The notes below the pieces were generated by a model. The model was not told the DNA's origin. It worked only from the letters and a program-made list of their open reading frames with translations, and ran no database searches. This document shows positions 4,407 through 63,054 of a DNA stretch of 64,000 nt, piece by piece (positions within the stretch are counted from its first letter, which is position 1; the number at the start of each line of letters is the position of its first letter). The stretch is from Gimesia alba (lineage in GTDB: Bacteria; Planctomycetota; Planctomycetia; Planctomycetales; Planctomycetaceae). Where the stretch lies: contig NZ_CP036269.1 in assembly GCF_007744675.1 (NCBI RefSeq), positions 2,521,546 through 2,585,545 on the forward strand, in the 5' to 3' direction. The position numbers and the translations under genes are program-made.

Positions 4407-4443
4407 CCGCGGCGTTGCGACTCTCTGAGACTATTGCTATTTT

Positions 4444-4475: not shown

Positions 4476-4489
4476 AGGAATCGGTACTT

Positions 4490-32470: not shown

Positions 32471-35400
32471 TTAAAAGAACAACATTTCGGTGTCATCAGT
32501 CAGGTCTGAGAAGAAGTCATCGAGATCTTCACCCCATGTCGGCAGGTTGCGAACGCCGGGGGCGAGGCCGTCCTGCATGACGCCTTCGTTTTCGTGTTCG
32601 TAGCCCAGGATGTGTCCGAGTTCGTGAAGGATGACGGTCAGGAGGTCGATCTGTCCAGCCGCTTCGCTGTCGGGTAACGCGATCAACGTCAGTTCGCTGG
32701 ACCCGGCAAATTCACTATGGTCGGTGGGTGTGGTATCGACGAACCAGCCATAACCGGCGGCGTTGACGTCGATATAGATTGTGCCGGCAGCAGCACGGCC
32801 TAACGTGTCTCCCTCCAGATCGACAACCTGGATGTCGATCTGTTCGAGCGTTTCACTCTCACTGGCTGAGAGCGCGGGGCTGACCTGCTCGACGACAGAT
32901 TCCAGCGCCGTTTCCGCCGTTGATTGTGAGATGGTCTGTGGTGTGGACGGCGGTTCTGTCTCTGCGTCTACGGTCAGTAAATCATTCCAGTCATCGGGGT
33001 AATTGTCAGGATAGTTGACCGGGGAAGAGCCTGACTTGTTTTTGCCATAGTTGCCGATAAACAGGATCAGATCCCGGATATTGACATGGTCGTTTTGATC
33101 AAGGTCTGCGAACCAGGAATAGTCGGAACTCGATGTACTGGGAACACTGTTATACACGTTGATAAAGATGATAAGGTCGCGGATATTGATGGCGTCATTG
33201 TCATCAAAGTCTAAAGGATTTGCATAGATGCTGGCTCCGTTGAAGGATCCCGGATTCGTCGTTGCAGGGATGTTGCCTTCTAAATTAACTTGCGCTGAAC
33301 TGACGCCAAGACCCAGGTCATGGGGACCAATACTTTTGCCTGACAGATCGAGGGCGACCTGGTCATCAGCCAGCGGTTCAAATTTGATGCGGGCAAAGAG
33401 AAGCTGGTTCTTGGCTCCCAGTCTTGAGGCGTTCGTTTCTGCAGACAGACTTTCGACGGTTCCCGTCTGATCGTTGATCACACCGGTTTGGTTCTGCGTA
33501 AAGGCGGCTCCAAATTGGATCTCTGTGGCTGAAGTATATTCGGTGGTGTAATTGAAGTCTAAAGCGGCAGAGAAGACTCCCTGCTCAGTCGGGTTATGAG
33601 CATCGATCCAGATTTCGACCCAGTAGGTCGACCATTCACTGATCCAGTTCTGATTTTCCGGAAGAGCAGCTGCTTCTCCGTTGGGCTGGGTGCTTGTCGG
33701 AGTATTCACCACCCGCACATTGATCTCTGCCGTGGCAATTTCATCGTCGAGAATTGTGACTTCCGCCTGACTGTCGGTCAGTGTCACGTTGCGGCCGTCA
33801 GCCTGGAGATTGAACAGATTCACCAGAAATGTTTCATCCGGTTCGAGCAGATCGGAATCAACGAGGGAGACTGTAATCGATTTTTGTTGATCTCCCGGGT
33901 TGAAGGTTAGTGTGCCGCTGGTGCTGGTGTAATCATCGGAAGCGGCAGCAGTCTGGTCGGCGGTGGCGAAGTCCACACTGACGGTGGTATCGACGGGCGA
34001 GTCCAGCGAGACGGTAAGTGTCGCGGTGCCTGCGTTTTCATCGACGGACACATCATCGATCGAGATGCCGGCTTGATCATTATCTGTGATGGTAACGATC
34101 GCTTGATTATCTCCCAGAATGATGTCTGCGCCGTTTGCCTGCAGATTGGTCAGATTGACCAGGAATGTTTCATCCAGTTCGATTTGGTCCGTATCGGTGA
34201 TTGGAATGACAATTGTCTGAGACAGGTCACCGGGGTTGAAGGTCAGTGTGCCGCTGGTATTGGTGTAATCATTGGGGCTGCTGGCGGTCCCCTCGGCAGT
34301 GGTATAGTCAACGCTAATAGCTGTGTCGACGGGTAAATTCAGCGAGACGGTAAGTATCGCGGTGCCTGCGTTTTCATCAACGGTCACATCATTGATTGAG
34401 ATTGCGGCCTGATCATCATCTGTGATGGTGACGGTTGCCTGATTATCTCCCAGAATGATGTTAGCGCCGTTTGCCTGCAGATTGGTCAGATTGACCAGGA
34501 ACGTTTCATCCAGTTCGATCTGGTCTGAATTGGTGATCGGAATGACAAATGTCTGGGACTGGTCACCCGGATTGAAGGTCAGTGTGCCGCTGGTGCTGGT
34601 AAAATCATTGGGAGCGGCAGCAGTCTGGTCAGCAGTCGCATAGTCCACGCTGATGGTGGTATCAACGGGCAAATCCAACGAGACGGTGAGCATCGCAGTA
34701 CCCGTGTTTTCATCGACCGTCACATCATCGATTGAGATTGTCGCCTGATCATCATCGTGAATCGTAACCTGCGCCTGATCGTCGGCAAAGGATATATTAC
34801 GTCCATTGGCCTGAATTCCCGAGAGGTTGACCAGGAATGTTTCAGTGAGTTCGACCTGGTCTGAATTGGTGATCGAGATGACAATTGTCTGGGACTGGTC
34901 ACCCGGATTGAAGGTCAGTGTGCCGCTGGTGCTGGTGAAATCATCGGGAGCGGTAGCAGTCTGGTCGGCAGTGGTGTAGTCCACGCTGACGCTGGTATCA
35001 ACGGGCGAGTCCAGTGAGACGGTGAGTGTCGCGGTGCCTGCGTTTTCATCAACCGTCAGGTCATCGATAGTTAAGCTGGCCTGATCATCATCAGTGATGG
35101 TGACGGTCGCTTGGTCATCTCCCAGAATGACATCTGCGCCGTTTGCCTGCAGATTAGTCAGGTTGATCAGAAAGGTTTCATCCAGTTCCACAAGATCAGA
35201 ATTGATGATCGAGACGGTGAAGGTTTTCGTCTGCTCTTCGGCATTGAAGGTCACAGTGCCAGATGTACTGAGATAGTCGAACGTGCTCGTTGCCGAATTG
35301 TTGGCGGCGGTAGCGAAGTCTACGCTGATACTTGTGTTTAATGGTTGATCCAATGATACTGTCAGCGTGGCGGTACCCATAGCTTCATTGACGGTCACAT

Positions 35401-38400
35401 CATCGATCGAGATCGCAGCCTGATCATCATTTTGAATCGTAATGGTACTCATTGATTGAGTGAGTTGTGCATACCCCGTTAGATTCGATAGTTCGATACC
35501 AAAAGTTTCGTCAAATTCGACACGTGTATCACCAAAAACCTGAAAGGTGATGGTTTCCGTTTGAGTTAAAGATGTTATTTCACTGCCAAAATTAATTGTT
35601 CCTAAAATGACTTGATAATCACCTGCGGAAACGGTTGCTGTACCATCAATGCTCTGGAAATCGACAGAGGCAGGCATAATTAAGTCACCTGGATTTGTCC
35701 CCGTTCGTGTTACATCAACACTGACTGTATGTAATCCATTATCCCCTTCTGAGACAATCAAATTTCCGATTGAAACTTCAGGTAATTTTTTAGGTCCAAA
35801 TACGTAGACCGATCCAGAGTTTTCGAATTCATCATCGTCTAAATTCGAGCTTACAAAGATAGATCCGTTGGAGAGGTCAAATTCACGCCCGAAGCTATCC
35901 CCTTTGACTGATTGTGCAGGGTCCAGTTTTTGCTGTTCCACCCAATTCAAGTTCTCTTTTTCGAAGACATAGACTGCACCATAAGTGTAGCTGCTATAGG
36001 GATCGAAATTGTTACTTGCAGGATCGTAAACCGCTCCGATCAAAATGAGATCTTCTTTGATAAGGACATCGATACCAAAATGTGAATTATGAGCAGCGTC
36101 CGATGCCGTTAAAGTCTGGGAATGATTCCAAAGATTGTTCTCTGGATCGAATGTATAAAGGTCAGCTTTACCACTACTGTATGACAGATCGCGGTTGGAG
36201 GAAGAACCAATTAACAGATCGTTTCCTTCCAGACTGATAGAGACACCAAATTCTCGCCGAAATCCAGGGGTTGAATCCTTGATCTTCTGCGTTTGCGACC
36301 AGATACCATTTTCGAAATTAAATACATAAACGGCTCCACTTTGGGAAATCGTTTCAGAGTCATGGCGTGCGCCGATGACGATTGTCGCGTTTTCAATGTC
36401 GACTGCATTACCAAAGTAGTCATTCTCATCTGCATCTTCTGCAACTAAGGTGGTTGACTTGGACCAGATTCCATTGGCTCGATTAAAGACATATGCGGCA
36501 CCAGTGAAATTATCAGTGGATTGCACACCCACAACAATTGTATCGCCTTCGATGGCAATCACATTACCAAAATAATCATTGTCGGTTGTCTCCGGAACAG
36601 AGAGCTCCTGCTGAAAACTCCAGGTATTTCCTGATCGCGTATAGACATAGAGAGATCCACTGTTGACCCCACTTCCATCCTGGTATGGCGCCCCTACAAC
36701 AGCGGTGTCACCACTGATGGCGACTTTCCAACCAAATCGGTCTGAATCGCCTACGGCAGGGTTGGGAGCCAGTAGCGTTGCCTGGTATTCCCAGGTATCG
36801 TCCTCTGGATGATTGGGGGTTCCCTGATCATTTCGTACATAGATAAACGCGGCTCCCTGATTGGGTTGGTCCGCATCCCAGTAGAGAGCACTTGAAATCA
36901 TGGTGTCACCATCGACGGCAACATCAGAACCGAATAAATCATTATTCACTTCTGGATTGACTGCATGTAGTTTAGACTTGAATTCGTAGTCGACGAGGTC
37001 GTTGTCCTGAATTGTGACTACTGCATGATGGTCAGAGACTATTACATCGAATCCGTTGAAATTAAAATTACTGAGATCAACGAAAAACGTTTCATCCAAT
37101 TCTATGAATTGATCATCAACAAGATCGACTGTTATGTTTCGAGATTTCGAACCGGAATAGAAAGTGACATTTCCTGATTTGCTGAGGTAGTCAACTGAAT
37201 CAAAGGCTGTCTGATCTGTCGTGGCATAATTAAGACTGATGTCGGTATCGACAGCCTGACTGAGTGAGACGGAAATTGTAGCGGTTCCCGCAGCTTCGTT
37301 AACTGTGACGTCATTGATTGAGATCGTAGCCTGATCATCGTCAACAATCGTAACCTCTCCTTGATTATCAGCGAAAACGACATCTGCGGTAGAAGACTGG
37401 ATGTTGCTCAAATTAACCCCAAAGGTCTCGTCTGCTTCCACGCGATCAAGATCAATGAGGCTGACGGTAATTGTTTTCGTGTGCTCACGGAAATTGAAAG
37501 TGAGCGTACCTGAAGTAGCCAAATAATCTGATCCACTGATTGCAGTACCATTGAATGTTGAGTAATCAATGGTAACAGGAGTCGTTACAATCTGAGGGAG
37601 TGAAACTGTTAATACCGCAGTCCCCGCGTCTTCATCAACTGAGACATCATCAATCGTGATTGTCGCCTGGTCATCGTCCACAATTGTGACCTGGCCTATT
37701 ACGTCAACAAAAATTACATCTGAATTATTTGACTGAAGCTTGTTGAGAAATACTCGAAACGTTTCATCAATCTCTACTAGTTCATTATCGACCAGATTGA
37801 TCGTGATTTTTTGGGTGAGTACATCGGGATTAAAGGTTAGTGTGCCTGCAGAGTGTTCATAGTCAACACCAGAGAATGCACTCTGTTGGCTGGTGAAGAA
37901 GTCGACAGTCACTAAGTTGTCGACTGCCTGACTGAGCGAAACAGTGAGTTCTGCGAATCCCAAATTTTCATTTACTGAAACATCATCAATCGAGATTGTC
38001 GCCTGATCATCATCGAGGATCTCAATCTCACCCTGGGGATCTGGCATACTGACCAGATTGTCTGCTACCTGAAGATTGGTCAGCAGAACCTGCATGCTTT
38101 CAGTCTGTTCCACAGTGTCCGAGTTGATGATGGAGACTGTGATCGTCTGAGAGACATCACCGGGATTGAAGGTCACAGTTCCGGTGCTGGAGAGAAAATC
38201 CAAATTTTCAACGGCGGTTCCGTTTACAGTCTGGTAATCGACTGAAACGGCTGTTTCCAGAATATGATCCAGTGAGACCGTTAGAGTTGCAGTCCCGACA
38301 TCTTCGTTGACCACAATATCATCGATTGAGAGGATTGCCTGGTCATCATCTGTGATCGTAATTTCCGCCTGATCGTTTCCAAGGGCCACGTTGAAGCCAT

Positions 38401-41400
38401 TGGCATGCAGGTTGGTGAGATTGACGAAAAATGATTCCGGTGATTCGGTGAGGCCATCGTCAATGATTGTCAGAGTGATGGTTTGCGTGGTTTCGCCCGG
38501 ATTAAACGTCAGCGTTCCCGAGGTTGTCGTATAATCAGAAGCATTGAGAGCCGTTCCGTTTAGCGTTTCAAAGTCGACAGAGACCGTAGTGTCGACGGGG
38601 CGATCGAGTGATACTGTGAGGGCCACGGTACCGGCATTTTCATCAACGGATAGATCGTTAATCGAGATGCTGGCCTGGTCGTCATCGTGGATTGTGACGA
38701 CTCCTTGAGTATCAGCGAGAATTACATTGGCACCATTCGCTTGAAGATTCGACAGATTGACAAAAAACGTTTCGTCCATTTCAACCAGAGCGGAATCATG
38801 AATTGAGATGGTGACTGTTTTAGAAGTCTCGCCAGGAGCAAATGCCAGGATACCTGATGTAGATTGATAGTCTGAGCTGCTCAACGCAGACCCGTCAGCT
38901 GTGCTGTAATTGATTGAAATGGGTGCCTCAACCTCGTGATCGAGTGAGACGGTGAGTGTTGCCGTTTCCATATTCTCGTTGATCGTAACGTCATTGATTG
39001 AGATTGTACTCTGGTCATCATCTTGAATTGTGACCACAGATTGACTATCTGAAAGCGTGATCTGGTACTCGCTGGACTGAGGGTTCGTCAGATTGATCAG
39101 GAAGATTTCATTCGGTTCTACGACATCAGAATCGATGATCGAAATATTGATTGACTTACTGGTTTCGCCGGGATTGAAGGTTAATGTTCCTGAAAGCGCC
39201 TGATAGTCAGATGGACTGGCAGCCGAGTCATTAGCGGTTGTGAAGTCAACTGTTAAAGCAGAGCTCAATGCCTGGTTGAGCGAAACGGTGACGGTCGCGG
39301 TTCCTGCATCTTCATTGATCACAACATCGTTGATCGAAAGGGATGGCTGATCTGAATCAAGAATGGTGACTTCTGCCTGACTATCTGGCAGTATCACATC
39401 CAGCCCCGAGTTCTGAAGATTAGACAAGTTGACAAGAAACGTTTTATCGACTTCGAGCAGATCGGAGTTGATGAGATCAACGATAATTGTTTTTGACTGC
39501 TCGCCCGGATTAAAGGTCAGTGTGCCGGATGTAGCCTGGTAATCCTCACCGGCAAGTGCGGTCTGGTCTGTGGTGGCGTAGTCAATTGTGATGGTTCCAT
39601 CAACTGGATTATCCAGTGAGACAACAAGACTGGCAGTACCTGATTCTTCATCGACACTCACGTCGTCAATTGAAACTATGGCCTGATCATCATCCACAAT
39701 AGTGATGTCCGCTGTGGAATTAGTGAATTGGAGGTCAGTCGGCGATACATCGGCCACGATGTTCACCCAGAACGTTTCATCCAACTCTACTTTATCATCG
39801 TCAACGATCGGAACGGTGAAGGTTTTTGATAACTCTCCGGGATTAAAAGTGACCGAGCCGTCTGCCTGTTGAAAATCGTTAAAAAGAATGGCAGTACCGG
39901 AATGAAAGTAATAGTTTACTGTAAATGGGTATTCAATTTCCTTATCGAGCGTGAGAGTCAGTGTGGCTGTTCCATCCCCTTCATAGGCTGTCGTGTCGGA
40001 AATGTTCAAGAACGCTGTATCATTATCTCGAATTGTGACAGTCGCTTTTTCACGTGGGATCAGTGCTTTGATCGATGGGTTTTTGAGGATGACTGAGAAG
40101 TATTCATGGGGTTCTATTTTTTCGTCGCCATTGATCTGAATGGAAATCGTTCTGGTTTGAGTCGCAGTTCCCGCTGCAAGATTAAAGCTTAATGTACCCG
40201 TCTGTGCCTGATAATCGCCGGATGCCGTGGTGGCAGTTCCATCGAGCGTTGTATAATCGATGGTGATGTTCTGATCGTACAGATCGGACGTTAATCCTCC
40301 CAGGGTTACGGTCAGGTTCAGAGTCTGGGTGCCATCATTTCCTTCAACAATTTCGGTATTGTCGATGATGAAGGTGGGGACCGGTCTCGTATATGCGTTG
40401 ATACGAGTGACGCGTTTCCGATCATCTTCAGGTAGAGGTGTTCCGTATATCGGGATATCGTCGTCGGTGATCAGGTGATTGCCATAATAGGCAATGCTTT
40501 GATCATCTCGAGTTGATCCACTTGAGTAGTATGATGGTGAATAAACCACGGATTCGTTTTGTGTTTCCCAACCTGCTGACCCATCATAAAAAAAGGTGGG
40601 GCCGTGTGTTGATGCAACAATCAGGGTATTGTCCACTGCAATGAGTTTCTTGCCGTATCCGTAGAAGTTATCCCAAGCCGTCGGGAGATATTCAATTTCC
40701 TCTGCATTCTCCCAGCCCATTGATCCATCAAAAATATAGACAGCACCGCTATCGGCCCTCTGTTCAATGCTTCTCGGGGAACCAACAAACACCGTGTCTC
40801 CGGAAATGGCGACAGCAGAACCATATTCACCTCCGCCAGTATAAACTGTGGAATTATAGAGGCTGGTTTCAACAGCATCGTTCCAGTCGGTCTGTTTTTC
40901 GTAAACGTAGACAGTCCAGCCATTGAGCCATCCCGGGGTGCCAACGACAATCGTGTCTCCATCAATATCGACGGCAGCTCCAAATTCTCTGTCTGTTGCT
41001 CCATTGGTCGCATACAGTATCGATTCTTCCGGCGCCAGACTGGACCAGTCAGTACCATTTCTGGTGTAGACGTAGACGACTCCCGAATTTGCCTCGACGC
41101 CATCTCCCTCAGGGTTTCCGATGACAATCGTATCACCTGTGAAGGCAATCAGATCCTCATATGTGTTGTTCAGATCGATATTGACTGTCCGGGATACGGT
41201 GTCAAACAGGGAAGTGACTGTCGGGGGCGTTGTGGTCCAGTCTGAACCATTCTTTTCATAGATAAAGACTTCGTACTGCCCTGATTTTGTATAGGTTCCG
41301 ACGACAATTGTGTCACCAAAGATGGCTATGCTGGATCCAAACAGGGTGAGTTCTTCAGGGTTTGGGCCAGAGAGTGTGGTTTCGTAAATCCAACTGTCAT

Positions 41401-44400
41401 CGGAATCGAAATCAGGCGTGCCGTGATCGTTTTTTGCATAAATATAAACGCCTCCTCCGGGAGCAAGAGTCGAATCCGTTCCGGGAGCCCCTACGATCAG
41501 GTAGTCGTCATTCATGGCCAGAGTGTGACCGTAGAAATCCTCCACATTCGATGCCGTGAGAGGGCCTCCGGGGGGCAGTTCGCTATTCAGATGAAATTCC
41601 CCATAGCTCTTGTTGGTATAGTCTGGCCCGTAAAATACGTAAGCACCACCACTGTCGATACCATCCATGTCGGCGCCTGTGGCACCGACCGCAATAGTTG
41701 TTCCGTCAAGGGCAACCGCTGAACCGAAGTGTTCCCTGTCTTGGGTGTCAACCGAAATTACTCTCTGTTTCAGTGCACTGTTAGACCAGTAGCCTGCAAA
41801 CTCGTAATAAAATGCGGCACCGGTAATCGCATTCTCGTTATCAGGCAGCACGGTTCCGGTCGCTCCAATCAGAAGGCCTGTGGTACTGATCGCGACAGAA
41901 TACCCGAAGAGCGTGGTTGAAATAGTGTCGAGATGGGGAGTAAATTTCAATTCATAGGGGCCATAAGAATTAGCAAGAAAACCATTGCTCTCGTATAAAT
42001 AGGCGCCGCCTCTGATGGCTCCCACTAAAACAGCATAACCGTTGGTTGCGACCGCTCCTCCGAATTCGTCGTAGATCTCACCGTCGGAAGCGGTCAGTCT
42101 GGTTTCATGGATTGAACTGCTGATCCAGCTCGAACCTGATTTGGCATAAACATACGCAGCGCCACTGGTGAGTCCATTCTCGTCATCTCCATAGGCGCCG
42201 ACGACAATCAAATTTCCTTCAATCGCAACTGAGTTCCCAAACTGATCTCCTGAAGAGAGTGTAGCAGGTTGTAATTTTCGAACCGCGGGAGTCGTCCAGG
42301 AATTTCCCTGTTTCTCCAGAATATAAGCGGCTCCTCCTGTCGAAACTCCAGTAGCGCCCGCAACAATGGTATTGCCGTCGATGGCTACCGAGTAACCAAG
42401 GTGAGCGCTGTAACTCAATCCAGAGAGTCTGATCCGCTCGATCTGGGGCGCTTCGGTTACCCAATCGTCTCCCGATTTTGTAAAAGCATAGATTGTACCT
42501 CCATTATCGTCGTAAGCTCCTGTGATGATGGTATTACCTTCGATGGCGACCGATCTACCAAAACCATCCGTATAAAGAGTTGATGTTGGGTTTAGAACGG
42601 TTTCGTATTCCCAGGTATCGTCAGACTGGTCAGCAGTTGTGCCATGATCATTACGCGCGTAGACATAAATGGTGTGCTTCTCCTCGGCACCAACGACCAT
42701 GTAATTCCCGTCTACTGCAATCGAATTTCCCGCCTCGTAGCCGGTATGATTGGCATGGATATCTTCCGGGTAATAGGGCTCCTGAAATTCAAAATTGTTC
42801 TCAAGCAGATCGTCGTTGGTAATCTCTCCTGTGGCCTCTAGTGTGTCGACGTTTCCTGCAAGAATACTTTCTCCCGTGGGATTGCTCAGCTGACCAAACA
42901 GGGTCTCTGAGTCTTCAATGATCAGGTCCCCCTGGACATTGATGGTCACCGTCTGGCTTTGTGTAATTCCCGTGGCACTAGCAGCGAAGGTTAGTGTGGT
43001 TGACAGTGCTGTATAGTCGATGCCCGCTATCGCAGTACCATCCAGGGTTGAGAAATTGACACTCGATACAAAATTCAAGTCACCGGGCGAAGCTCCTGTC
43101 CGGGTAATTTCGAAAGTCAATGCTTGTGTTCCGTCTGCTCCTTCCAGCACGCTGGTTGGTGTCAGACTGAAAATGGATTGTAATCCCTGATCAAGAATTG
43201 TAACACTGGCACGATCGTCAGCGAAGATTACATCGGCTAAGCCAGAGTTGATTCCAGACAACTGAATTGCAAATGATTCGGTACCTTCAACCAAGCTTGA
43301 ATCAATCAGGGGGACCTCAATGGTTTTTGTGGTTTCTCCCGGATTGAAAGTCACTGTTCCTGATGCGGACAGATAGTCCTCGCTGCTGGTGGCACTCTCG
43401 TCTTCTGTGGTATAAGCCACTGTGACAGTTTTCTCAACTTCCTGGTCGAGAGAGACCGTCACAAATGCGGTTCCGTCTCCTTCATTGACCGTGAGGTCTT
43501 CAATGGAAACGGTGGCCTGTTCACTTTTTTGAATGGTGACTGATCCGAGGTTGTCTGCGAGGATCACTCCAATTGTTCCGGTTTGCACATTAGACAACCA
43601 GACCAGAATTGATTCATAACTTTCTACCAGTTCATCATCGAAGATGGGGATAGAAATGGTTTTCGAAGTCTGTCCGACACCGAAATAAAGAGTACCGGAA
43701 GTTGCCTGGTAGTCCAGTCCGGCCTGAGCACCGCTGTCGGCGGTGGTGTAATCAACGCTGAATGGCTGGGCGTGTGGTTTTGATAGCGTGACAGTCAAAG
43801 TTGCTGTTCCGGCTTCTTCATATACGGGAGCAGAACCGATCGTCAATTCGGGCTGATCTTCGTCTACGATAGTTACAACTGCCTGATCGTTCGTGAAATC
43901 AAGCAGATAATCTGCTGATTGAATATTGTCTAATACGATCAGGAATGTTTCGTCCGGTTCGGCTACGTCATCATTTATGAGGGGGATCGTAATTGCTTTT
44001 GTCGTTTCGTGGGAAGCAAAGACAAGGGTGCCGGATGTGTCAGTATAATCACTTGTGGAAAGAGCCGTCTGGGAATACGTATCAAAATCAACACTGAAGG
44101 CACTGTCAATCGACTGATTGAGTGAGACGTACAGTGTTGCAGTTCCCCCGGATTCGTTGACAGTGACAGCGTCAATGGACAGTCTGAGTGGAATGGAATC
44201 AACGATAGTCACTTCGGCCTGATTGTCTGCGAGTGTGACGATCAAGCCGTTCGATTGAACGTGGCTTAAATTGACCAGGAACGTTTTGTTCGCTTCCAGA
44301 GGCGTCGAATTAACGATCGGGACGGTAATGGTTTTGGTCTGCTCATTGGCACTGAAATGCAGTGTGCCTGACGTGGCTGCATAATCACCGGGACTGGTGG

Positions 44401-47400
44401 CAGTCTGATCCGAGGTGGAAAAATCGACAAATACGTCTCCATTGACTGGGGCACTCAACGAAACTTGAAGTGTGGCTGTGCCTGCATCTTCGTGTACTGT
44501 AATATCATCGATCGAGATGGTGGCCTGGTCATCGTCCTGGATGATGACCTGAGCCTGGTTGTCTAATATGCTTACATTGAGCGAGCCGTCCTGCAGATTG
44601 AAGAGGTTGACGAGAAACGTTTCATCAGCTTCAACCAGATCATCATCGGTGAGGGGAATATCAATCGTTTGTATGGTTTCGCCTGCTTCAAATGTCAGGA
44701 CGCCGGTTGAAGACTGAAAGTCGGTTGTCGAATAGGCCGAAACGTCCTCTGTGGCATATTCGACGGTAAATGCTTCGGTCTGTGCTTTCGTCAAATTGAC
44801 CGAGAGTGTGGCGGTTGCCGCGGATTCATTGACAATGAGATCACTGATTGTGAGACGCGGACGGTCCTTATCTAGAATCGTGACCAATGCCTGGTCATCG
44901 TTCATCAGAACCTGGTAAACTCCTGATTGAATATTGCTCAGAAAGACATAAAACGTTTCATCGGCTTCGACTGTATCCGAGTTGAAAATGGGTATGGTGA
45001 TTGTTCTGGCTGTTTCCAGGGGATTGAACGTGATTGTGCCAGATCGGGCCAGGTAGTCATTGGGAGAGACAGCGGTGTCGTTGGCCGTGATATAATCGAC
45101 CGTCACCGTCGTGGGAATGGCTGAACTGAGTGAGACATTCAGCGTCGCTGTTCCCGCATCTTCATTCACAGCCACATCTTCGATCGTCAGGAGCGGGATA
45201 ACGGTCTGGTCATCGTCCTGGATGGTGACCTCGCCCTGACTGTCACCGAAGTCGACATTGGCTCCTTCAGATTGAATATGGCTCAGGTTTATATAAAACG
45301 ATTCTTCTGTTTCCACCTGGCTGTTGTTCACAATCGGCACTGTGATGGCCTGTGATTGCGTGCCTGCGGTAAACGTGATCGTTCCCGATGTGCTGATGTA
45401 GTCAGCAGTGGAATAGGCAGTACGGTTGGCTGTGCTGTAATCGACACTGACCGTTGCATCGACTGGTTTGTCCAGCGTCACATAGATTGTCGCTGTTCCC
45501 TCATTTTCATGTAAGCTGACATCATCAATGCGAACCAGTGACTGATCATCTTCAATGATGGTGATGGTCGCTGTCTTGTCTAACAGTCGGGCATTTCCCA
45601 GGGGATTTGAGAGTTTGACCAGAAACGTTTCATTTTTTTCAACAAAGGTGTCACCAAAGATCTGGACCGTGAAAGTGCGCGTTTGAAAAATCGCATCCGG
45701 ATCACCTTCAAAAGACAATGTTCCCGAATTTCCCAGATAGTCCCCCGTCATGACTTTGGCATCACCATCCATAGTGGCGAAGTGGACCAGCGCAGGGATG
45801 CTCAAATCGCCGGGAGTTGTGCTGGTGCGAGTGACCTCAATCGTCACGTATTTCGACCCCGTATCACCTTCCGTAAAGCTCATGTTGTCAATGGAGATGG
45901 TCGGAAGGTCCGTCGGGCGGTAGACGTAAATGGATCCAGCCGCTTGCTCCTGTTCATTATCATGTACCGCATTGATCAGGATCAAATCATGGGAGATGGC
46001 TATCTTTCGGCCAAAGTAAGCATCATCATTCAGATCTAAATCTCTCAGGATGTCTACCTGCACCCAGGTTGAGTTTTCTTTTCTGAAAAGGTAAGTGGCA
46101 CCATTTTCCGTTATCAGGTGAGAAGCCGGGTCTCTTATTGAACTGACCAGAATCAAATCACCCTGAATGTCTACAGAGGTTCCAAAGTAGGAGTTAAACA
46201 CATCGGGTGTGATTGTCAGCGTTTGTGTTTCCAGCCAGACATCGTCAACTCTGGTAAACACATAGGCGGCCCCGGTGTTATCTAACTGCTCGGTATCAGG
46301 GTTGAACGACTCATGAAAAACAGCGCCAACCACAAGGTTGTCTCCATCCAGAGCCACACTGTTCCCGAAGTATTCGCCATCGTGAGGCGAATCAGATTTC
46401 AGCTTTTGGACTTCGATCCAGTTTCCGTCCTGCAGATCGAATACATAGACTGCACCACTGTTATAATGCAGATTATCATCTGAATCTGCCACCGCACCTA
46501 CGACGAGCGTCGTGCCATCGACATCAATTGAATCTCCGAAGTGTTTATATGTCTCAGGGTCTGACGCAGTGAGTCTGGCCATCTCTGACCAGGTATTACC
46601 AGAGCGGGAAAATACATAAACGGCACCTTGGCCATGATCAGAATAGGGATAACTGGAACCGGGAATTAATTCACCATTAGCATTGGCGACGCCAACGAAG
46701 ATCATATCGCTTTCGATCTTCAGTACATGGCCAAATTCGGCGACTCTTTGAGGTTCTGAAGCTTTCAGTTTCTGCTGAAAAGTCCAGACATTATTCGAAC
46801 GTGTGTAGACATAGATGGCACCACTGTTTTCAGCGCCTTCATCATCCCGGTAATCAGAGACGACTGCAGTATTACCATTGATGGCTACTGAATATCCAAA
46901 ACCATCTGTTGTATAGCCAACTGGAGGCAATAATGTCGCCTGATAATCCCAGGTGTCATCGGAAAATATTGTGGGAGTTCCCTGGTTGTTTCGAGTGTAT
47001 ACAAAGGCAGCACCTATATTCTCTCCCGCTTCATCCCAGCCACGGCTACTGACAATCATCGAGTTATCATCAATATCGAATGATCTTCCATATTCATCAA
47101 AGGAACCAGCAGTTCCTGGCGAAAAGAGCTTTGACTGCAGTTCAAACTGATGAACGAAATCATAATCCGGTTCAATTGTGACGACTCCGAGATCGTCAGT
47201 AATGAAAACATCGGAACGGTATGAACGAACACCAGTTAAATGAACCTCAAAAGACTCTTCAAATTCAAAGCGTTCATCGTTAAAAATGTTTATGGAGATG
47301 GTTTTTGACTGTTCTCCTGCCGCGAAATAAATGTCTCCTGAGGAACTCAAGAAATCGCCACTGGTTGCCGTGTCTGGGGCAGTTGCATAATCAATTAATA

Positions 47401-48031
47401 AATAAGAATCTACGGGTTTATCGATCGATACCGTCAATACTGCAGTCCCCGCAGCTTCGTTGACGGTCACATCATTAATCGAAATCCGTGCCTGGTCGTC
47501 GTTCGCAATCCGTTCATCCGCGGTCGAGGTTCGGATTGTGGTACCTGAACTGTTATGCGAAATGATGCCCTTAAATTTCTCTTCTTCTTCGACCAGAATA
47601 TCCCCGTTAATGATCACTTCCACGGTCTGAGTCTGTTTCAGGGATGTTGAATCTGCTCCAAAAGTGAGTGTGGTCGAGACTGGGACATAGTCCCCCTCTG
47701 CGGACAGTGCCGTGTCGTCTTCGGTATGGAAATCCACCGTTGCGATTGAGTTGAGACTCCCGGCATAACTCCCATTTCTCGTGATCGTGAATGTAGCGAT
47801 TGTGTCCCCGGAATCTCCTTCATCAATCCTGAAGTCTGAACTGATGCTAAACTCCGACGTCAGCATCGTCCGGTCTTCCAGCGCCTCAATCGTGTTCAGC
47901 TGGCGATTTTCAGAATTGAAAGATCGAGACAGGGAAACGTTTTGTGATTGACGTCGTTGTAGTTTGCGATTGTGTTTACGCGGGGAACGACAACGGTTTG
48001 CGATCGACCTAAGCCAGTTCGTCAGGAGCAT
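32471..48031 (-). CDS. Giant extracellular protein: Calx-beta modules, FG-GAP propellers, dockerin-like segment and metalloprotease-type motif
   Basis: 5186 residues in one uninterrupted frame. The N-terminus is basic and contains IEALEDRTML (about residue 48), the LEPR-type motif of large planctomycete exported proteins. Then follow 2 Calx-beta-like modules (about 58-290), 7 FG-GAP repeats (290-702), 9 Calx-beta (703-1745), 14 FG-GAP (1747-2554), 10 Calx-beta (2555-3680), 7 FG-GAP (3682-4084) and 6 Calx-beta (4085-4760). A cohesin-like beta domain is at about 4770-4935. A dockerin-like pair of Asp-rich loops (DFDDNDAINIRDL, DLDQNDHVNIRDL) is at about 4940-5000. A C-terminal matrixin-like segment has HELGHILGYEH at 5136-5146, with VMQDG after it as a possible Met-turn. 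Probably a calcium-dependent adhesin or surface protein. No ribosome-binding site is evident. Confidence 0.9.
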   Translation of the reverse strand: MLLTNWLRSIANRCRSPRKHNRKLQRRQSQNVSLSRSFNSENRQLNTIEALEDRTMLTSEFSISSDFRIDEGDSGDTIATFTITRNGSYAGSLNSIATVDFHTEDDTALSAEGDYVPVSTTLTFGADSTSLKQTQTVEVIINGDILVEEEEKFKGIISHNSSGTTIRTSTADERIANDDQARISINDVTVNEAAGTAVLTVSIDKPVDSYLLIDYATAPDTATSGDFLSSSGDIYFAAGEQSKTISINIFNDERFEFEESFEVHLTGVRSYRSDVFITDDLGVVTIEPDYDFVHQFELQSKLFSPGTAGSFDEYGRSFDIDDNSMIVSSRGWDEAGENIGAAFVYTRNNQGTPTIFSDDTWDYQATLLPPVGYTTDGFGYSVAINGNTAVVSDYRDDEGAENSGAIYVYTRSNNVWTFQQKLKASEPQRVAEFGHVLKIESDMIFVGVANANGELIPGSSYPYSDHGQGAVYVFSRSGNTWSEMARLTASDPETYKHFGDSIDVDGTTLVVGAVADSDDNLHYNSGAVYVFDLQDGNWIEVQKLKSDSPHDGEYFGNSVALDGDNLVVGAVFHESFNPDTEQLDNTGAAYVFTRVDDVWLETQTLTITPDVFNSYFGTSVDIQGDLILVSSIRDPASHLITENGATYLFRKENSTWVQVDILRDLDLNDDAYFGRKIAISHDLILINAVHDNEQEQAAGSIYVYRPTDLPTISIDNMSFTEGDTGSKYVTIEVTRTSTTPGDLSIPALVHFATMDGDAKVMTGDYLGNSGTLSFEGDPDAIFQTRTFTVQIFGDTFVEKNETFLVKLSNPLGNARLLDKTATITIIEDDQSLVRIDDVSLHENEGTATIYVTLDKPVDATVSVDYSTANRTAYSTADYISTSGTITFTAGTQSQAITVPIVNNSQVETEESFYINLSHIQSEGANVDFGDSQGEVTIQDDDQTVIPLLTIEDVAVNEDAGTATLNVSLSSAIPTTVTVDYITANDTAVSPNDYLARSGTITFNPLETARTITIPIFNSDTVEADETFYVFLSNIQSGVYQVLMNDDQALVTILDKDRPRLTISDLIVNESAATATLSVNLTKAQTEAFTVEYATEDVSAYSTTDFQSSTGVLTFEAGETIQTIDIPLTDDDLVEADETFLVNLFNLQDGSLNVSILDNQAQVIIQDDDQATISIDDITVHEDAGTATLQVSLSAPVNGDVFVDFSTSDQTATSPGDYAATSGTLHFSANEQTKTITVPIVNSTPLEANKTFLVNLSHVQSNGLIVTLADNQAEVTIVDSIPLRLSIDAVTVNESGGTATLYVSLNQSIDSAFSVDFDTYSQTALSTSDYTDTSGTLVFASHETTKAITIPLINDDVAEPDETFLIVLDNIQSADYLLDFTNDQAVVTIVDEDQPELTIGSAPVYEEAGTATLTVTLSKPHAQPFSVDYTTADSGAQAGLDYQATSGTLYFGVGQTSKTISIPIFDDELVESYESILVWLSNVQTGTIGVILADNLGSVTIQKSEQATVSIEDLTVNEGDGTAFVTVSLDQEVEKTVTVAYTTEDESATSSEDYLSASGTVTFNPGETTKTIEVPLIDSSLVEGTESFAIQLSGINSGLADVIFADDRASVTILDQGLQSIFSLTPTSVLEGADGTQALTFEITRTGASPGDLNFVSSVNFSTLDGTAIAGIDYTALSTTLTFAASATGITQSQTVTINVQGDLIIEDSETLFGQLSNPTGESILAGNVDTLEATGEITNDDLLENNFEFQEPYYPEDIHANHTGYEAGNSIAVDGNYMVVGAEEKHTIYVYARNDHGTTADQSDDTWEYETVLNPTSTLYTDGFGRSVAIEGNTIITGAYDDNGGTIYAFTKSGDDWVTEAPQIERIRLSGLSYSAHLGYSVAIDGNTIVAGATGVSTGGAAYILEKQGNSWTTPAVRKLQPATLSSGDQFGNSVAIEGNLIVVGAYGDDENGLTSGAAYVYAKSGSSWISSSIHETRLTASDGEIYDEFGGAVATNGYAVLVGAIRGGAYLYESNGFLANSYGPYELKFTPHLDTISTTLFGYSVAISTTGLLIGATGTVLPDNENAITGAAFYYEFAGYWSNSALKQRVISVDTQDREHFGSAVALDGTTIAVGATGADMDGIDSGGAYVFYGPDYTNKSYGEFHLNSELPPGGPLTASNVEDFYGHTLAMNDDYLIVGAPGTDSTLAPGGGVYIYAKNDHGTPDFDSDDSWIYETTLSGPNPEELTLFGSSIAIFGDTIVVGTYTKSGQYEVFIYEKNGSDWTTTPPTVTSLFDTVSRTVNIDLNNTYEDLIAFTGDTIVIGNPEGDGVEANSGVVYVYTRNGTDWSSLAPEESILYATNGATDREFGAAVDIDGDTIVVGTPGWLNGWTVYVYEKQTDWNDAVETSLYNSTVYTGGGEYGSAVAISGDTVFVGSPRSIEQRADSGAVYIFDGSMGWENAEEIEYLPTAWDNFYGYGKKLIAVDNTLIVASTHGPTFFYDGSAGWETQNESVVYSPSYYSSGSTRDDQSIAYYGNHLITDDDIPIYGTPLPEDDRKRVTRINAYTRPVPTFIIDNTEIVEGNDGTQTLNLTVTLGGLTSDLYDQNITIDYTTLDGTATTASGDYQAQTGTLSFNLAAGTATQTRTISIQINGDEKIEPHEYFSVILKNPSIKALIPREKATVTIRDNDTAFLNISDTTAYEGDGTATLTLTLDKEIEYPFTVNYYFHSGTAILFNDFQQADGSVTFNPGELSKTFTVPIVDDDKVELDETFWVNIVADVSPTDLQFTNSTADITIVDDDQAIVSIDDVSVDEESGTASLVVSLDNPVDGTITIDYATTDQTALAGEDYQATSGTLTFNPGEQSKTIIVDLINSDLLEVDKTFLVNLSNLQNSGLDVILPDSQAEVTILDSDQPSLSINDVVINEDAGTATVTVSLNQALSSALTVDFTTANDSAASPSDYQALSGTLTFNPGETSKSINISIIDSDVVEPNEIFLINLTNPQSSEYQITLSDSQSVVTIQDDDQSTISINDVTINENMETATLTVSLDHEVEAPISINYSTADGSALSSSDYQSTSGILAFAPGETSKTVTISIHDSALVEMDETFFVNLSNLQANGANVILADTQGVVTIHDDDQASISINDLSVDENAGTVALTVSLDRPVDTTVSVDFETLNGTALNASDYTTTSGTLTFNPGETTQTITLTIIDDGLTESPESFFVNLTNLHANGFNVALGNDQAEITITDDDQAILSIDDIVVNEDVGTATLTVSLDHILETAVSVDYQTVNGTAVENLDFLSSTGTVTFNPGDVSQTITVSIINSDTVEQTESMQVLLTNLQVADNLVSMPDPQGEIEILDDDQATISIDDVSVNENLGFAELTVSLSQAVDNLVTVDFFTSQQSAFSGVDYEHSAGTLTFNPDVLTQKITINLVDNELVEIDETFRVFLNKLQSNNSDVIFVDVIGQVTIVDDDQATITIDDVSVDEDAGTAVLTVSLPQIVTTPVTIDYSTFNGTAISGSDYLATSGTLTFNFREHTKTITVSLIDLDRVEADETFGVNLSNIQSSTADVVFADNQGEVTIVDDDQATISINDVTVNEAAGTATISVSLSQAVDTDISLNYATTDQTAFDSVDYLSKSGNVTFYSGSKSRNITVDLVDDQFIELDETFFVDLSNFNFNGFDVIVSDHHAVVTIQDNDLVDYEFKSKLHAVNPEVNNDLFGSDVAVDGDTMISSALYWDADQPNQGAAFIYVRNDQGTPNHPEDDTWEYQATLLAPNPAVGDSDRFGWKVAISGDTAVVGAPYQDGSGVNSGSLYVYTRSGNTWSFQQELSVPETTDNDYFGNVIAIEGDTIVVGVQSTDNFTGAAYVFNRANGIWSKSTTLVAEDADENDYFGNAVDIENATIVIGARHDSETISQSGAVYVFNFENGIWSQTQKIKDSTPGFRREFGVSISLEGNDLLIGSSSNRDLSYSSGKADLYTFDPENNLWNHSQTLTASDAAHNSHFGIDVLIKEDLILIGAVYDPASNNFDPYSSYTYGAVYVFEKENLNWVEQQKLDPAQSVKGDSFGREFDLSNGSIFVSSNLDDDEFENSGSVYVFGPKKLPEVSIGNLIVSEGDNGLHTVSVDVTRTGTNPGDLIMPASVDFQSIDGTATVSAGDYQVILGTINFGSEITSLTQTETITFQVFGDTRVEFDETFGIELSNLTGYAQLTQSMSTITIQNDDQAAISIDDVTVNEAMGTATLTVSLDQPLNTSISVDFATAANNSATSTFDYLSTSGTVTFNAEEQTKTFTVSIINSDLVELDETFLINLTNLQANGADVILGDDQATVTITDDDQASLTIDDLTVDENAGTATLTVSLDSPVDTSVSVDYTTADQTATAPDDFTSTSGTLTFNPGDQSQTIVISITNSDQVELTETFLVNLSGIQANGRNISFADDQAQVTIHDDDQATISIDDVTVDENTGTAMLTVSLDLPVDTTISVDYATADQTAAAPNDFTSTSGTLTFNPGDQSQTFVIPITNSDQIELDETFLVNLTNLQANGANIILGDNQATVTITDDDQAAISINDVTVDENAGTAILTVSLNLPVDTAISVDYTTAEGTASSPNDYTNTSGTLTFNPGDLSQTIVIPITDTDQIELDETFLVNLTNLQANGADIILGDNQAIVTITDNDQAGISIDDVSVDENAGTATLTVSLDSPVDTTVSVDFATADQTAAASDDYTSTSGTLTFNPGDQQKSITVSLVDSDLLEPDETFLVNLFNLQADGRNVTLTDSQAEVTILDDEIATAEINVRVVNTPTSTQPNGEAAALPENQNWISEWSTYWVEIWIDAHNPTEQGVFSAALDFNYTTEYTSATEIQFGAAFTQNQTGVINDQTGTVESLSAETNASRLGAKNQLLFARIKFEPLADDQVALDLSGKSIGPHDLGLGVSSAQVNLEGNIPATTNPGSFNGASIYANPLDFDDNDAINIRDLIIFINVYNSVPSTSSSDYSWFADLDQNDHVNIRDLILFIGNYGKNKSGSSPVNYPDNYPDDWNDLLTVDAETEPPSTPQTISQSTAETALESVVEQVSPALSASESETLEQIDIQVVDLEGDTLGRAAAGTIYIDVNAAGYGWFVDTTPTDHSEFAGSSELTLIALPDSEAAGQIDLLTVILHELGHILGYEHENEGVMQDGLAPGVRNLPTWGEDLDDFFSDLTDDTEMLFF
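33745..35425 (-). repeat. Five tandem Calx-beta modules with an exact 336-bp period
   Basis: An anchor (GTGCC(G/A) context) recurs at 33914, 34250, 34586, 34922 and 35258, which is 336 bp (112 codons) each time. The four modules nearest the C-terminus are very similar at DNA level, for example CTGGTGCTGGT and GTCTGGTC blocks, which points to recent duplication. Confidence 0.85.
35781..36990 (-). repeat. FG-GAP block 3: seven repeats (one predicted propeller)
   Basis: Seven FG-GAP-type motifs: DLFGSDVAVDGDT, DRFGWKVAISGDT, DYFGNVIAIEGDT, DYFGNAVDIENAT, REFGVSISLEGND, SHFGIDVLIKEDL and DSFGREFDLSNGS. Confidence 0.85.
40371..42795 (-). repeat. FG-GAP block 2: fourteen repeats (two predicted propellers)
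   Basis: First set of seven runs from YEAGNSIAVDGNY to EHFGSAVALDGTT, the second from DFYGHTLAMNDDY to RDDQSIAYYGNHL. The block is about twice the length of blocks 1 and 3. Two repeats in the second set have lost the FG. Confidence 0.8.
45925..47165 (-). repeat. FG-GAP block 1: seven repeats (one predicted propeller)
   Basis: Seven motifs: DEYGRSFDIDDNS, DGFGYSVAINGNT, AEFGHVLKIESDM, KHFGDSIDVDGTT, EYFGNSVALDGDN, SYFGTSVDIQGDL and AYFGRKIAISHDL. Confidence 0.85.
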
Positions 48032-48452: not shown

Positions 48453-51400
48453 ATGCTATTTTTTCATAAACACGCGCGTGTTTTCTTTGGGCGAGACCCG
48501 ATTCAGAGTTTTGTCATACTATCGAGAGATCGCTGTCTGCGAATGCTTCTGCTTCTGTTTCTCGTTTCATTCGGGGGCACTGATCGAGCAACACAGGCAA
48601 GTCAAAAACAGCCCGCTCCGGCACAACGGAAGCTTGTCTACCTGGATTTTCAGAAGTTCGATAGCCAGTACAACACCCGGGCACCCAGCCTGCTGACGAG
48701 AGAGTTGTTTCGACAGGCGTTTCTAGTGGCAGCCCGCGATGAATTGGGTTACCGGACGCGCGATGTCTCTCTGGGAGATCAAATCCCTGGGAAGGATACC
48801 AAAGGGGATCTGGTTTTTAATGTGCATCTTGTGATGGATCGCAGGCGCAAAATTGAAGTGCGGATCTTCAAACAGGAAGGCGACACCGAGACGCTGATTG
48901 AGAAACGCAAGCTGAAGATGACGAATCTGACTCCGGTCTCGGAAGTTGTTGCCTTCACAGAAGAATTATCACGTACCTGGTTTAAGGACCTCCTGCAAAA
49001 AGCGGGCTATGCACCACAGGAACTACAAGCACCTTCGACAGAACTGTCTCGATTGCATGCGCTTTTCATTAAGCCGAACGAGTTGAATTACCGCGATCAG
49101 TTCAGCCGGTTGAATGAGCTACATCAGTCGATTGCCGAAGAGGGAGAGAACCCGGAACGACTGGCGCTGCTGGCCCAGAGCTACGCACTGTATGGAACAT
49201 TAACGGAGCAGTACTGGTGTCTGATTCCGCTGGCAACAAAGGCGCGTGCCTTGCTCTATGCAGAACGTCTTCACCAGAAATGCCCGCAAACCGTATTTGC
49301 ACTTTCCTATCGGGCATTGGTGCGCACTCTCGTCGGTCTGGAGCAGAACGCGCTGGATGACATTCAGAAACTATCAGACCCGGAAGTAGAACAGACTCCC
49401 AGGCCAATCTGGCTGCCCATAATCGAAGCATATTGCCTGCATGATGCGGATCGACTTTCAGGAAACAAATTCGCATCGCAGAATGAACTGCTGTGGCGAT
49501 ATCTGAATCTGCTGCAAGCGACCTATTACGGAACAACAACCGAACAGAATGCGGTCGTCGATGCCTTTATGAAGCTAGTTCCCGATTCGGCTCGTGCCTT
49601 TTACACCAGGCCGAAAACAATTGGTTATCGCCAGAGTGAAAAGATGATCGAGACGGAAAATATTCGTTTTATCAATTCCGCATTTTCATATTTCGAGGAG
49701 CAGAACGCGCTTCGCATGTTACCGGAACGAACCGGGAGCCAATTAAAAAATCTGATCGAGAGCCGTAATAAAATCGTGTCAGACCTGTTGACCCAGGCGG
49801 TGAAGCCGGACCAGGAAACAGAGCCTTCGCTGGCTCTGTTCGCCAACAGCATGAAAGAACTGACGTTTCTGCAAGCGACGGATCTCATGATCCGCCTGCG
49901 TCAAATGCAAGGGGTGAAAGCCGATGTCCCTCTGCAGATATTTTTAACTTCGGTGCCGAACCATCCGTTCAAAAAGTACCTGGAAAGCTTTGCCTGGGAA
50001 AACGGTGTCGCAACCGAGGCGTTCCAGGAATTACGCTTTGTACCAGACGAATATGTCGTGCCCGCCGCGTATCCGATTTTCCTCCGCGACCGGAAACTGA
50101 ATCTGATCGACAAGCCGCTTGAGTCGATCTGGAGGGAATATGTCAAAAATGCCAGCCATGTGATTTCGGAACTGGCTTACTCCATTGATTACGCGTTGCC
50201 AGAAGTACAAAAAGGGGCGTGGGTTCCTTATTTGCGCCCGGTCAGTCCTCATTCGCCTTATACAGCCATGCGGGAGATCGGTTTCAAGTTTGAACAGAAT
50301 CAGGACCGGATTCCGCATCTGCTGAAAAAATATGAAGACTCTTATTTGTTACTTCATGCGATCGCAAGCCAGTACCTGGTTCGTTTTGATTATCCCCACG
50401 CAGAATGGGTTTTTAAGAGAATGTATCGTAGTGATCCCTCATATGAAACCATCTATCCTTTAATTCAACTGGCCCAATTGCAGAATAAAAGCAAGCAGGA
50501 ATTGAGGCTGCGCCAGGAAGCCCTGGGAATACCGAATACGTTGATGCGGCGGTGTCGACAGGAACATGATCTGGCGGAATATTATCTTCGTCAGGGAGAC
50601 TATGAGGCTGCTTTGCCTCATGCGGAGCGGGCAACAAAAAGTAATTCTGGTTGGGCAATGCGGATGCAGGCGCTCTGCCATGAGTTGCTGGGGGATCTGG
50701 ATACTGCATTAGAAATCCGTCAACGGGAGTCAAAACGTTATCAGCAGTGGTACATTTTTCATGCCTGGTGCCGTTCGCGTGGGCTGGAACCTCCCGAGCA
50801 GAATCGAACAGCGCTCAAGCCGGCGCTGGAATATTATGCGAAGGTTCCACTACCGAGCAATCGCCATTTGATCTCGGATCAATTGGTTTATGAGCAGTTG
50901 TCAGCAGTGGCTGTTGTCCTGTATCTGGAAAATCAATTGAAGACTGCGCTGGAAGTCATGCAGTACGCCAGCGAAGAATATGATTATGTGGGAGAAACGT
51001 TTCCCGCGGTCCTGGCGGCGCTGATTGCGGATGAACTGGGGTTGAATCAGGAGCGAGATAAAAGTCTGAGCAGGGCGATTGAAATTGAGTATAAGTCCCG
51101 CGGCAAAGAATATTATCTGCCTCAACTCAATCAGATCTTGTTGATCAAGCAGATTCTCACCGAGGATAACACACCGGAACTGTCTCCCACGTTGATTGAC
51201 TGGTATCTGCAGGAACTTCCTGATCAAAGGGTGCGGAGTAACTATCTCTACCTGATCGGCAAAGCTTTATTGCAGAAAAAACAGACTGAACTGGGAAGCC
51301 GTTATTTGAAGCTGGCCGCTGCCTCTCCGTTGCAGACTCTGAGTACGTCCCGCATGGCCGCCTATACGCTGCTTAAATTAAAGATCGAAAAAGACCCGTA

Positions 51401-52040
51401 TCATGAAAACATGTTCGATGCGGACACCGATCAGATGTTACGACTGGTCGATGGTGCCTACGCTTACCAGTATTATAAAAAACGTGAACTGGAACTGGTG
51501 AATTTGAATCGTGCTGTGCAGCTCTTTCCGGAGGCAAGCCTGCCTTATTTGCGACGAGCCGAGTATTACGCTGCTCAGAAAAAACGCGATCAGGCTGATC
51601 AGGATTTTGCGAAAGCGATGGAATTGACGCCGCAAGTACCAGAACTGTGGATGAGTCGCGGCAAGTTCTATCAATCGACGGGCCAAGATCAGGCGGCGGT
51701 CGAAGATTATCGACAGGTGTTAGAACGAGATCCAGAATCGTTTTTAGCGCATCAGAAATTAGCCTTGCTGTTGGCCGCCAGCCCCGATGATCAGGTTCGA
51801 GACGGAAAGCAGGCTCTGCAGCATGCACAACAGGCGGCTAAGTTACTTCCTCAGCAGAAATCCACTAATCTGGCTCTGATTGCAATTGCTTATGCGGAAC
51901 TCAAACAGTTTGATAAGGCGAAGCAATACAATCGGGATGCCATCAAAAGCCAAAAGCATTTTCGAATCAAACGTCTATTAGAAAAACGGGAAAAACTCTT
52001 TGTGACGAGAAAGCCCTATCGTTTGAAGAAACGCTCTTAA
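48453..52040 (+). CDS. Large secreted TPR-repeat protein
   Basis: 1195 residues from the first ATG. An internal ATG at 48543 would remove 30 residues and start directly at a hydrophobic signal (MLLLLFLVSFGG), so that start is also likely; neither has a strong ribosome-binding site. Residues about 60-180 form an alpha/beta domain (LVYLDFQKFDSQYNTR, LVFNVHLVMDRRRKIEVRIF), perhaps a small outer-membrane-lipoprotein-like or sensor domain. The remainder is helical. TPR motifs are clearest at about 700-740 (AEYYLRQGDYEAALPHAERA) and at the C-terminus, about 1020-1170 (YYAAQKKRDQADQDFAKAMELTP, YQSTGQDQAAVEDYRQVLERDP, AYAELKQFDKAKQYNRDA). Presumed periplasmic scaffold. Function unknown. Confidence 0.8.
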   Translation: MLFFHKHARVFFGRDPIQSFVILSRDRCLRMLLLLFLVSFGGTDRATQASQKQPAPAQRKLVYLDFQKFDSQYNTRAPSLLTRELFRQAFLVAARDELGYRTRDVSLGDQIPGKDTKGDLVFNVHLVMDRRRKIEVRIFKQEGDTETLIEKRKLKMTNLTPVSEVVAFTEELSRTWFKDLLQKAGYAPQELQAPSTELSRLHALFIKPNELNYRDQFSRLNELHQSIAEEGENPERLALLAQSYALYGTLTEQYWCLIPLATKARALLYAERLHQKCPQTVFALSYRALVRTLVGLEQNALDDIQKLSDPEVEQTPRPIWLPIIEAYCLHDADRLSGNKFASQNELLWRYLNLLQATYYGTTTEQNAVVDAFMKLVPDSARAFYTRPKTIGYRQSEKMIETENIRFINSAFSYFEEQNALRMLPERTGSQLKNLIESRNKIVSDLLTQAVKPDQETEPSLALFANSMKELTFLQATDLMIRLRQMQGVKADVPLQIFLTSVPNHPFKKYLESFAWENGVATEAFQELRFVPDEYVVPAAYPIFLRDRKLNLIDKPLESIWREYVKNASHVISELAYSIDYALPEVQKGAWVPYLRPVSPHSPYTAMREIGFKFEQNQDRIPHLLKKYEDSYLLLHAIASQYLVRFDYPHAEWVFKRMYRSDPSYETIYPLIQLAQLQNKSKQELRLRQEALGIPNTLMRRCRQEHDLAEYYLRQGDYEAALPHAERATKSNSGWAMRMQALCHELLGDLDTALEIRQRESKRYQQWYIFHAWCRSRGLEPPEQNRTALKPALEYYAKVPLPSNRHLISDQLVYEQLSAVAVVLYLENQLKTALEVMQYASEEYDYVGETFPAVLAALIADELGLNQERDKSLSRAIEIEYKSRGKEYYLPQLNQILLIKQILTEDNTPELSPTLIDWYLQELPDQRVRSNYLYLIGKALLQKKQTELGSRYLKLAAASPLQTLSTSRMAAYTLLKLKIEKDPYHENMFDADTDQMLRLVDGAYAYQYYKKRELELVNLNRAVQLFPEASLPYLRRAEYYAAQKKRDQADQDFAKAMELTPQVPELWMSRGKFYQSTGQDQAAVEDYRQVLERDPESFLAHQKLALLLAASPDDQVRDGKQALQHAQQAAKLLPQQKSTNLALIAIAYAELKQFDKAKQYNRDAIKSQKHFRIKRLLEKREKLFVTRKPYRLKKRS

Positions 52041-52381: not shown

Positions 52382-52387
52382 ATGACG

Positions 52388-53428: not shown

Positions 53429-53482
53429 CCGGTGTTTTTTTAGTCGTTTACCAATTTCTCTCCGAGTTGAAACAGGTTATTC

Positions 53483-55203: not shown

Positions 55204-55310
55204 ATGGGAAGCCGATGGAATTAACAGTTGCTATTGAAAAGGAGACCGGGGGATTGCCCCGTTATGATTAAAATGGAACATGGTTTTCTTATGTCAGGTC
55301 ATCAGACGCG

Positions 55311-57262: not shown

Positions 57263-57337
57263 CCGTCGGGAAAACGGAAACAGGAAACGTAATTTAACTG
57301 TCGCGCAATTGGATCTGATTGCAGGAAGGAAAGTCCA

Positions 57338-62915: not shown

Positions 62916-63054
62916 TTTGTCACTACCGATTTCATCTGATACTTTAGGCTGCAATTATGGTATCTTGCGATGAATTCCATTGAGAATCAATCCAAACATG
63001 AATTTCGATGTGAAAGCAGCTTTACTTTTTTACGTTTGATGCAAGGGCAACCCA

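Follow-up and report, generated by a model that had tools for sequence, protein, structure and literature searches.

What kind of protein is encoded by a single uninterrupted reading frame of 5186 codons in the marine planctomycete Gimesia alba, and how far does its likeness to integrins extend? The frame lies within a 64,000-nucleotide stretch of contig NZ_CP036269.1 (the window). At 15,561 bp it exceeds the 15 kb that defines a planctomycetal giant gene, and its relatives are found in Gimesia. The translated product is a 557 kDa protein with a pI of 4.05, 9.9% aspartate and a single cysteine.

The original prediction, made from the letters of the DNA, described four seven-bladed FG-GAP propellers embedded in 27 Calx-beta modules, and named, as grounds for doubt, a frameshift within the gene or an assembly join there. 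The whole frame was inspected and no stop codon, frameshift or N was seen between 32471 and 48031. The genome is one closed contig of 7,769,723 bp, and an artefact of this kind was rejected. A search of the surroundings for tRNA or Rfam RNA found nothing. The architecture supported by our analysis is four integrin-alpha-like propellers strung along 27 rod-like Calx-beta modules in a single bacterial chain, which is apparently secreted (Table 1). The order and number of modules, the period of seven in relatives and a closed model of one propeller were computed directly.

Table 1. Features of the giant gene, in window coordinates.
Feature	Position	Strand	Residues	Basis or remark
Giant gene, 5186 aa	32471..48031	(-)		single uninterrupted ORF
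N-terminal cassette, MLLTNWLRSI...IEALEDRTMLTS, LEPR-XLL-like	47852..48031	(-)	1-60	
Calx-beta modules 1-2	47165..47839	(-)	65-289	PF03160 and own-module model
FG-GAP_2 propeller 1, seven blades	45899..47143	(-)	297-711	repeats, AlphaFold2 model, integrin alpha matches
Calx-beta modules 3-11 (nine)	42809..45901	(-)	711-1741	PF03160 and own-module model
FG-GAP_2 propeller 2, first half of 14-repeat block	41585..42745	(-)	1763-2149	repeats and spacing
FG-GAP_2 propeller 3, second half of 14-repeat block, last two blades degenerate	40379..41584	(-)	2150-2551	repeats and spacing
Calx-beta modules 12-21 (ten)	36998..40372	(-)	2554-3678	PF03160 and own-module model
FG-GAP_2 propeller 4, seven blades	35786..36985	(-)	3683-4082	repeats and spacing
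Calx-beta modules 22-27 (six)	33740..35776	(-)	4086-4764	PF03160 and own-module model
Cohesin-like beta-sandwich	33218..33736	(-)	4766-4938	PF00963 17.4 bits, fold match
Dockerin-like EF-hand-type loop pair, DFDDNDAINIRD / DLDQNDHVNIRD	33038..33211	(-)		PF00404 20.1 bits
Metzincin-like domain, NAAGYGWFxDxTP-type segment and HExGH	32513..32938	(-)	5032-5173	
Zinc motif HELGHILGYEH	32594..32626	(-)		sequence
Tract nearly identical to a paralogue	32498..35205	(-)		98.45% identity to G000:C1:4141995-4144702

Calx-beta rods and seven-bladed propellers

The Calx-beta modules had been counted by eye in groups of 2, 9, 10 and 6. Pfam model PF03160 returned the same grouping, and each of its 27 distinct matches scored above the 27-bit cut-off. 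Calx-beta E values of 1e-152 to 1e-180 leave little room for chance, and a profile made from the modules of the protein itself again recovered 27. A DNA tandem repeat with a period of 336 runs from 33894 to 35212, within modules 22-27. One aspartate and two glutamate positions are invariant in 27/27 modules and the module junctions are acidic, so that the sequence offers acidic residues suited to calcium binding. The modules are homologous to the Calx domains of Na/Ca exchangers (NCX), which serve as the analogy for calcium-stiffened rods. Because of the invariant acidic positions and acidic junctions, and by that analogy, we suggest that the arrays form calcium-stiffened rods.

Pfam identified 23 matches to FG-GAP_2 (PF14312) above 23 bits (E = 1e-69 to 1e-84). 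A more sensitive local model found 7, 12 and 7 repeats in the three blocks. Two further, degenerate repeats were seen by eye in the middle block, bringing it to 14, and the span of this block between its Calx-beta neighbours is 813 aa, against 808-832 aa for related 14-repeat blocks. The predicted counts of 7, 14 and 7 are thus borne out. The four propellers share 28-41% identity. Alignment in register was best for 5/6 propeller pairs and was clear for propellers 1 and 4, which are 41% identical. A blade-1 insertion, NDxGT..DDTW, is present in exactly four copies (residues 348, 1794, 2201 and 3734), one where each predicted ring begins, so that two of the four fall in the 14-repeat block. It is missing from some rings of relatives.

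The possibility that blade counts are irregular was examined in 44 FG-GAP blocks. These came from the 19 Gimesia proteins, the giant one among them, that carry one or more complete blocks; the proteins are related and their blocks are therefore not independent. Blocks of 7 repeats accounted for 27/44, blocks of 14 for 11/44, and one block had 21. The other five stopped short of a multiple of seven by one or two repeats, which were weak or missed: three blocks had 13, one had 12, and one had 20 with a double-length gap. The number of propellers per protein ranges from one to six with the multiple of seven kept, and irregular counts were rejected. Block sizes of 7, 14 and 21 in relatives imply that the inherited unit is the whole seven-bladed propeller.

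Propeller 1 was modelled with AlphaFold2 from a four-row alignment. The model is a closed ring of 28 strands (7 x 4; mean pLDDT 76, pTM 0.83), the kind of ring that the original prediction had named as support for its reading if obtained for all four propellers. Its best solved matches in Foldseek were integrin alpha headpieces (E 1.5e-12), and VIA-align superimposed it on integrin alphaM with a Z of 34.7 and an rmsd of 3.5 A over 352 residues. The closed ring of seven four-stranded blades is thus supported by a model for propeller 1 and by repeats and spacing for propellers 2-4.

The original prediction went further and proposed that one chain combines modules of both integrin chains. The alpha-type part of that proposal stands in fold and blade order. 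The remainder is weaker: the Calx-beta modules match NCX and are generic, no Pfam match to integrin beta head or leg domains was found anywhere in the chain, and none of the FG-GAP blocks carries a DxDxDG calcium loop. Membership among true integrins was rejected on the missing loops and beta head. Compared with the integrin alpha propeller (PF01839), the protein is a single bacterial chain with propellers of the FG-GAP_2 subtype and no beta partner domains.

Terminal cassettes

The first 60 residues form a cassette with the signature LEDRTMLT, which we take to be a form of the planctomycete N-terminal signature named LEPR-XLL. None of the family models in the Pfam and NCBIfam libraries searched matched it. 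The cassette recurs (E<1) in the same genome, where it opens at least six other large frames; the frames matched have 1928, 2710, 5278, ~13,265-13,269, 5662, 5705 and 256 aa. One of these, the frame of ~13,265 aa at G000:C1:5271347-5311144 (loci L011-L013), also contains Calx-beta modules; at 39.8 kb it is very long for a bacterial gene.

The last 421 residues form a second cassette. It was matched 14 times in this genome, and each of the other Gimesia genomes searched gave 6-19 matches. Among named sequences, those of Gimesia MAGs are closest to the C-terminus. N- and C-terminal cassettes are common to many paralogues with different middles.

A cohesin-like domain, dockerin-like loops and a HELGHILGYEH motif had been predicted here, and all three were recovered. 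The matching Pfam families were found at the C-terminus as anticipated, each below its curated cut-off: PF00963 at 17.4 against 24.1 bits, PF00404 at 20.1 against 22.9 bits and PF00413 at 23.7 against 24 bits. The cohesin-like model has the nine-stranded fold and matched cohesin 2vo8 with a Z of 12.7 (rmsd 2.6 over 132 residues). The dockerin-like part, where confidence in the structure model is low, has two DxNxD-type 12-residue loops, DFDDNDAINIRD and DLDQNDHVNIRD, as in type I dockerins. The metzincin-like domain has an intact HExxHxxGxxH followed by the conserved methionine of the Met-turn, and its nearest solved relative in a profile search was karilysin (E 8.9e-6). Cohesins filled the fold matches listed for the C-terminal part and the metzincin-like domain was absent among them, which has no bearing on its fold.

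Cyanobacteria, Desulfuromonas, Acinetobacter and others have the metzincin-like domain as well, towards the end of large repeat proteins. Its NAAGYGWF segment and HExGH are invariant across phyla (loci L028, L030-L034, L038, L042, L043 and L046), and no model of its own was matched in the Pfam and NCBIfam libraries searched.

Relatives, paralogues and neighbors

Full-length orthologues or close paralogues are present in several Gimesia species and differ in their numbers of Calx-beta modules. The larger Gimesia orthologues carry four to six rings. In other members of the phylum this type of propeller is common, usually within smaller proteins, and the larger non-Gimesia planctomycete proteins inspected have a single ring each and no Calx-beta array (one has a single Calx module). 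For this reason the multi-ring, Calx-embedded form is, judged by sequence, Gimesia-specific within the sample examined.

The 2.7-kb tract at the 3' end of the gene is nearly identical to a paralogue ~1.6 Mb away, while the rest of the gene is far more diverged. The tract breaks off abruptly a little ahead of the stop codon, a pattern that gene conversion would produce, and GC3 is higher over residues 4501-5186. Recent conversion or partial duplication would explain both the tract and the rise in GC3. Assembly collapse through the tract was judged unlikely because the two copies have 40 mismatches.

Other copies are less intact. A paralogue with the same terminal cassettes (G000:C1:4124731-4136361, L009-L010) has one in-frame TAA at codon 1921, marking either a decayed copy or a sequencing error. 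In one orthologue (genome G010) a frameshift splits the gene into two frames at about 10,120 of locus L107, near a Calx-beta module boundary. The stop and the frameshift imply that not every copy is strongly selected or correctly sequenced.

A gene for a BNR-repeat (sialidase-like) protein adjoins the giant gene and is kept beside the orthologue in genome G016. A functional link to the divergent TPR gene at 48453-52040 was rejected; in genomes G005 and G013 the TPR orthologues (51-52% identity) are separated from the giant gene by ~80-90 kb or more. Elsewhere in the window, 52382-58063 holds an operon that by eye is Bat-like (MoxR-type ATPase, DUF58-type, two von Willebrand A-type and a TPR-type protein), and 62091-62954 encodes a DUF6933 domain fused to a GIY-YIG nuclease domain.

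Function and relation to known systems

We felt that the giant protein is probably a secreted multi-headed surface adhesin or extracellular-matrix fibre, and hold this with moderate confidence. The LEPR-XLL-like N-terminus would mark the chain for export, and the 27 Calx-beta modules with their acidic junctions would form calcium-stiffened rods. The first propeller lies near the N-terminus, the next two sit in tandem at mid-chain and the last lies towards the C-terminus; the four would act as separate heads along the fibre, each binding a protein or glycan ligand. The C-terminal cassette may dock, cross-link or process fibres at the cell surface, with cross-linking by cohesin-dockerin pairing as in the hypothetical planctosome (PMC6461901) and the metzincin trimming chains. 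Four ligand-type heads on stiff rods in a secreted chain would suit such an adhesin or fibre, and Gimesia cells are described with surface fibres, stalks and rosettes (PMC7716864). Against it, the same modules also serve other functions, and the family may exist chiefly for its protease.

Alternatively, the protein could be a cell-surface degradative scaffold like the planctosome, in which cohesin and dockerin join members and enzymes, the metzincin is the working protease and the propellers hold substrate. The occurrence of a cohesin fold and dockerin-like loops in one cassette, the intact HExxHxxGxxH with its downstream methionine, the sialidase-like neighbor kept beside the G016 orthologue, and a cohesin/dockerin/peptidase complex proposed for freshwater planctomycetes (PMC6461901) are all consistent with such a scaffold. 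We nonetheless consider it unlikely, as rod and propeller make up most of the mass, the catalytic domain is short, partner binding is putative, and the dockerin and matrixin scores fall below the family cut-offs. The metzincin-like domain could instead serve a self-processing cassette, cleaving near its own N-terminal side to release or anchor the rest of the chain. Its place towards the end of large repeat proteins in several phyla, with NAAGYGWF and HExGH invariant, would suit that role, but both the cleavage site and the protease activity are putative, and we regard it as very improbable.

Variation in propeller number, four to six in larger orthologues of otherwise constant design, would also fit a protein with a structural role alone, in a fibre, stalk or matrix, whose propellers are rigid spacers without ligands, and Gimesia does make stalks and surface fibres. 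The propeller fold is a classic ligand-binding platform, however, and identities of 28-41% between propellers suggest different surfaces. This alternative seemed to us distinctly doubtful.

The original prediction also held that the combination is not a described system. Several of its elements had been reported before: giant genes in planctomycetes, integrin-type propellers in bacteria, tandem pairs among them, and Calx-beta in bacteria. Bacterial seven-bladed propellers, some in tandem pairs of 14 repeats, were reported by Chouhan et al. 2011 (PMC3192720). They share with the giant protein seven FG-GAP-type repeats per ring and tandem rings in one chain. They have a calcium site in every blade, whereas the giant protein has none and sets its four rings apart with Calx-beta arrays. 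Cyanobacterial homologues of integrin alpha and beta4 domains were described by May and Ponting 1999, as cited in PMC3192720. From that citation, both module types occur in bacteria. The modules of the giant protein are homologous to those of NCX; compared with NCX, integrin beta4 and the cyanobacterial homologues, the giant protein has 27 rod copies, another architecture and terminal cassettes.

Giant genes are a known planctomycete trait (PMC5177795 and PMC7716864), the latter paper giving seven genes >15 kb for G. alba Pan241w. The present gene resembles these in size, phylum and genus; the portions available count giant genes and give no propeller or Calx architecture. The planctosome proteins (PMC6461901) also combine cohesin, dockerin and zinc peptidase at the planctomycete surface. 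They are other proteins, with a lamin-tail anchor and P-domains and without propellers or Calx rods. No literature on FG-GAP and Calx-beta together in bacteria or planctomycetes was found in a search that mostly excluded subscription journals. Novelty therefore holds for the architecture and not for giant genes as such: the multi-propeller, Calx-embedded, cassette-bounded family is a new layout of known parts of which no description was found.

The products of planctomycete giant genes are for the most part uncharacterised, and this family offers a way into their biochemistry. Its building blocks, entire propellers and rods, are sharply delimited, which allows individual heads to be produced alone and assayed for ligands. 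The bacterial kin of the integrin alpha head gain propellers that are integrin-like, lack calcium loops and occur several to a chain. The analysis also draws attention to a conserved C-terminal metzincin-like domain, its NAAGYGWF segment invariant, that large repeat proteins from several phyla share. More tentatively, and leaning somewhat against it, we raise the idea of a modular surface-protein system in Gimesia: between the Calx-beta rods, seven-bladed propellers would come and go as complete, fixed units, and gene conversion would spread and homogenise the shared N-terminal (export) and C-terminal (cohesin-dockerin-metzincin) cassettes among paralogues. If so, the cell would change its set of binding heads and keep one route of display and processing.
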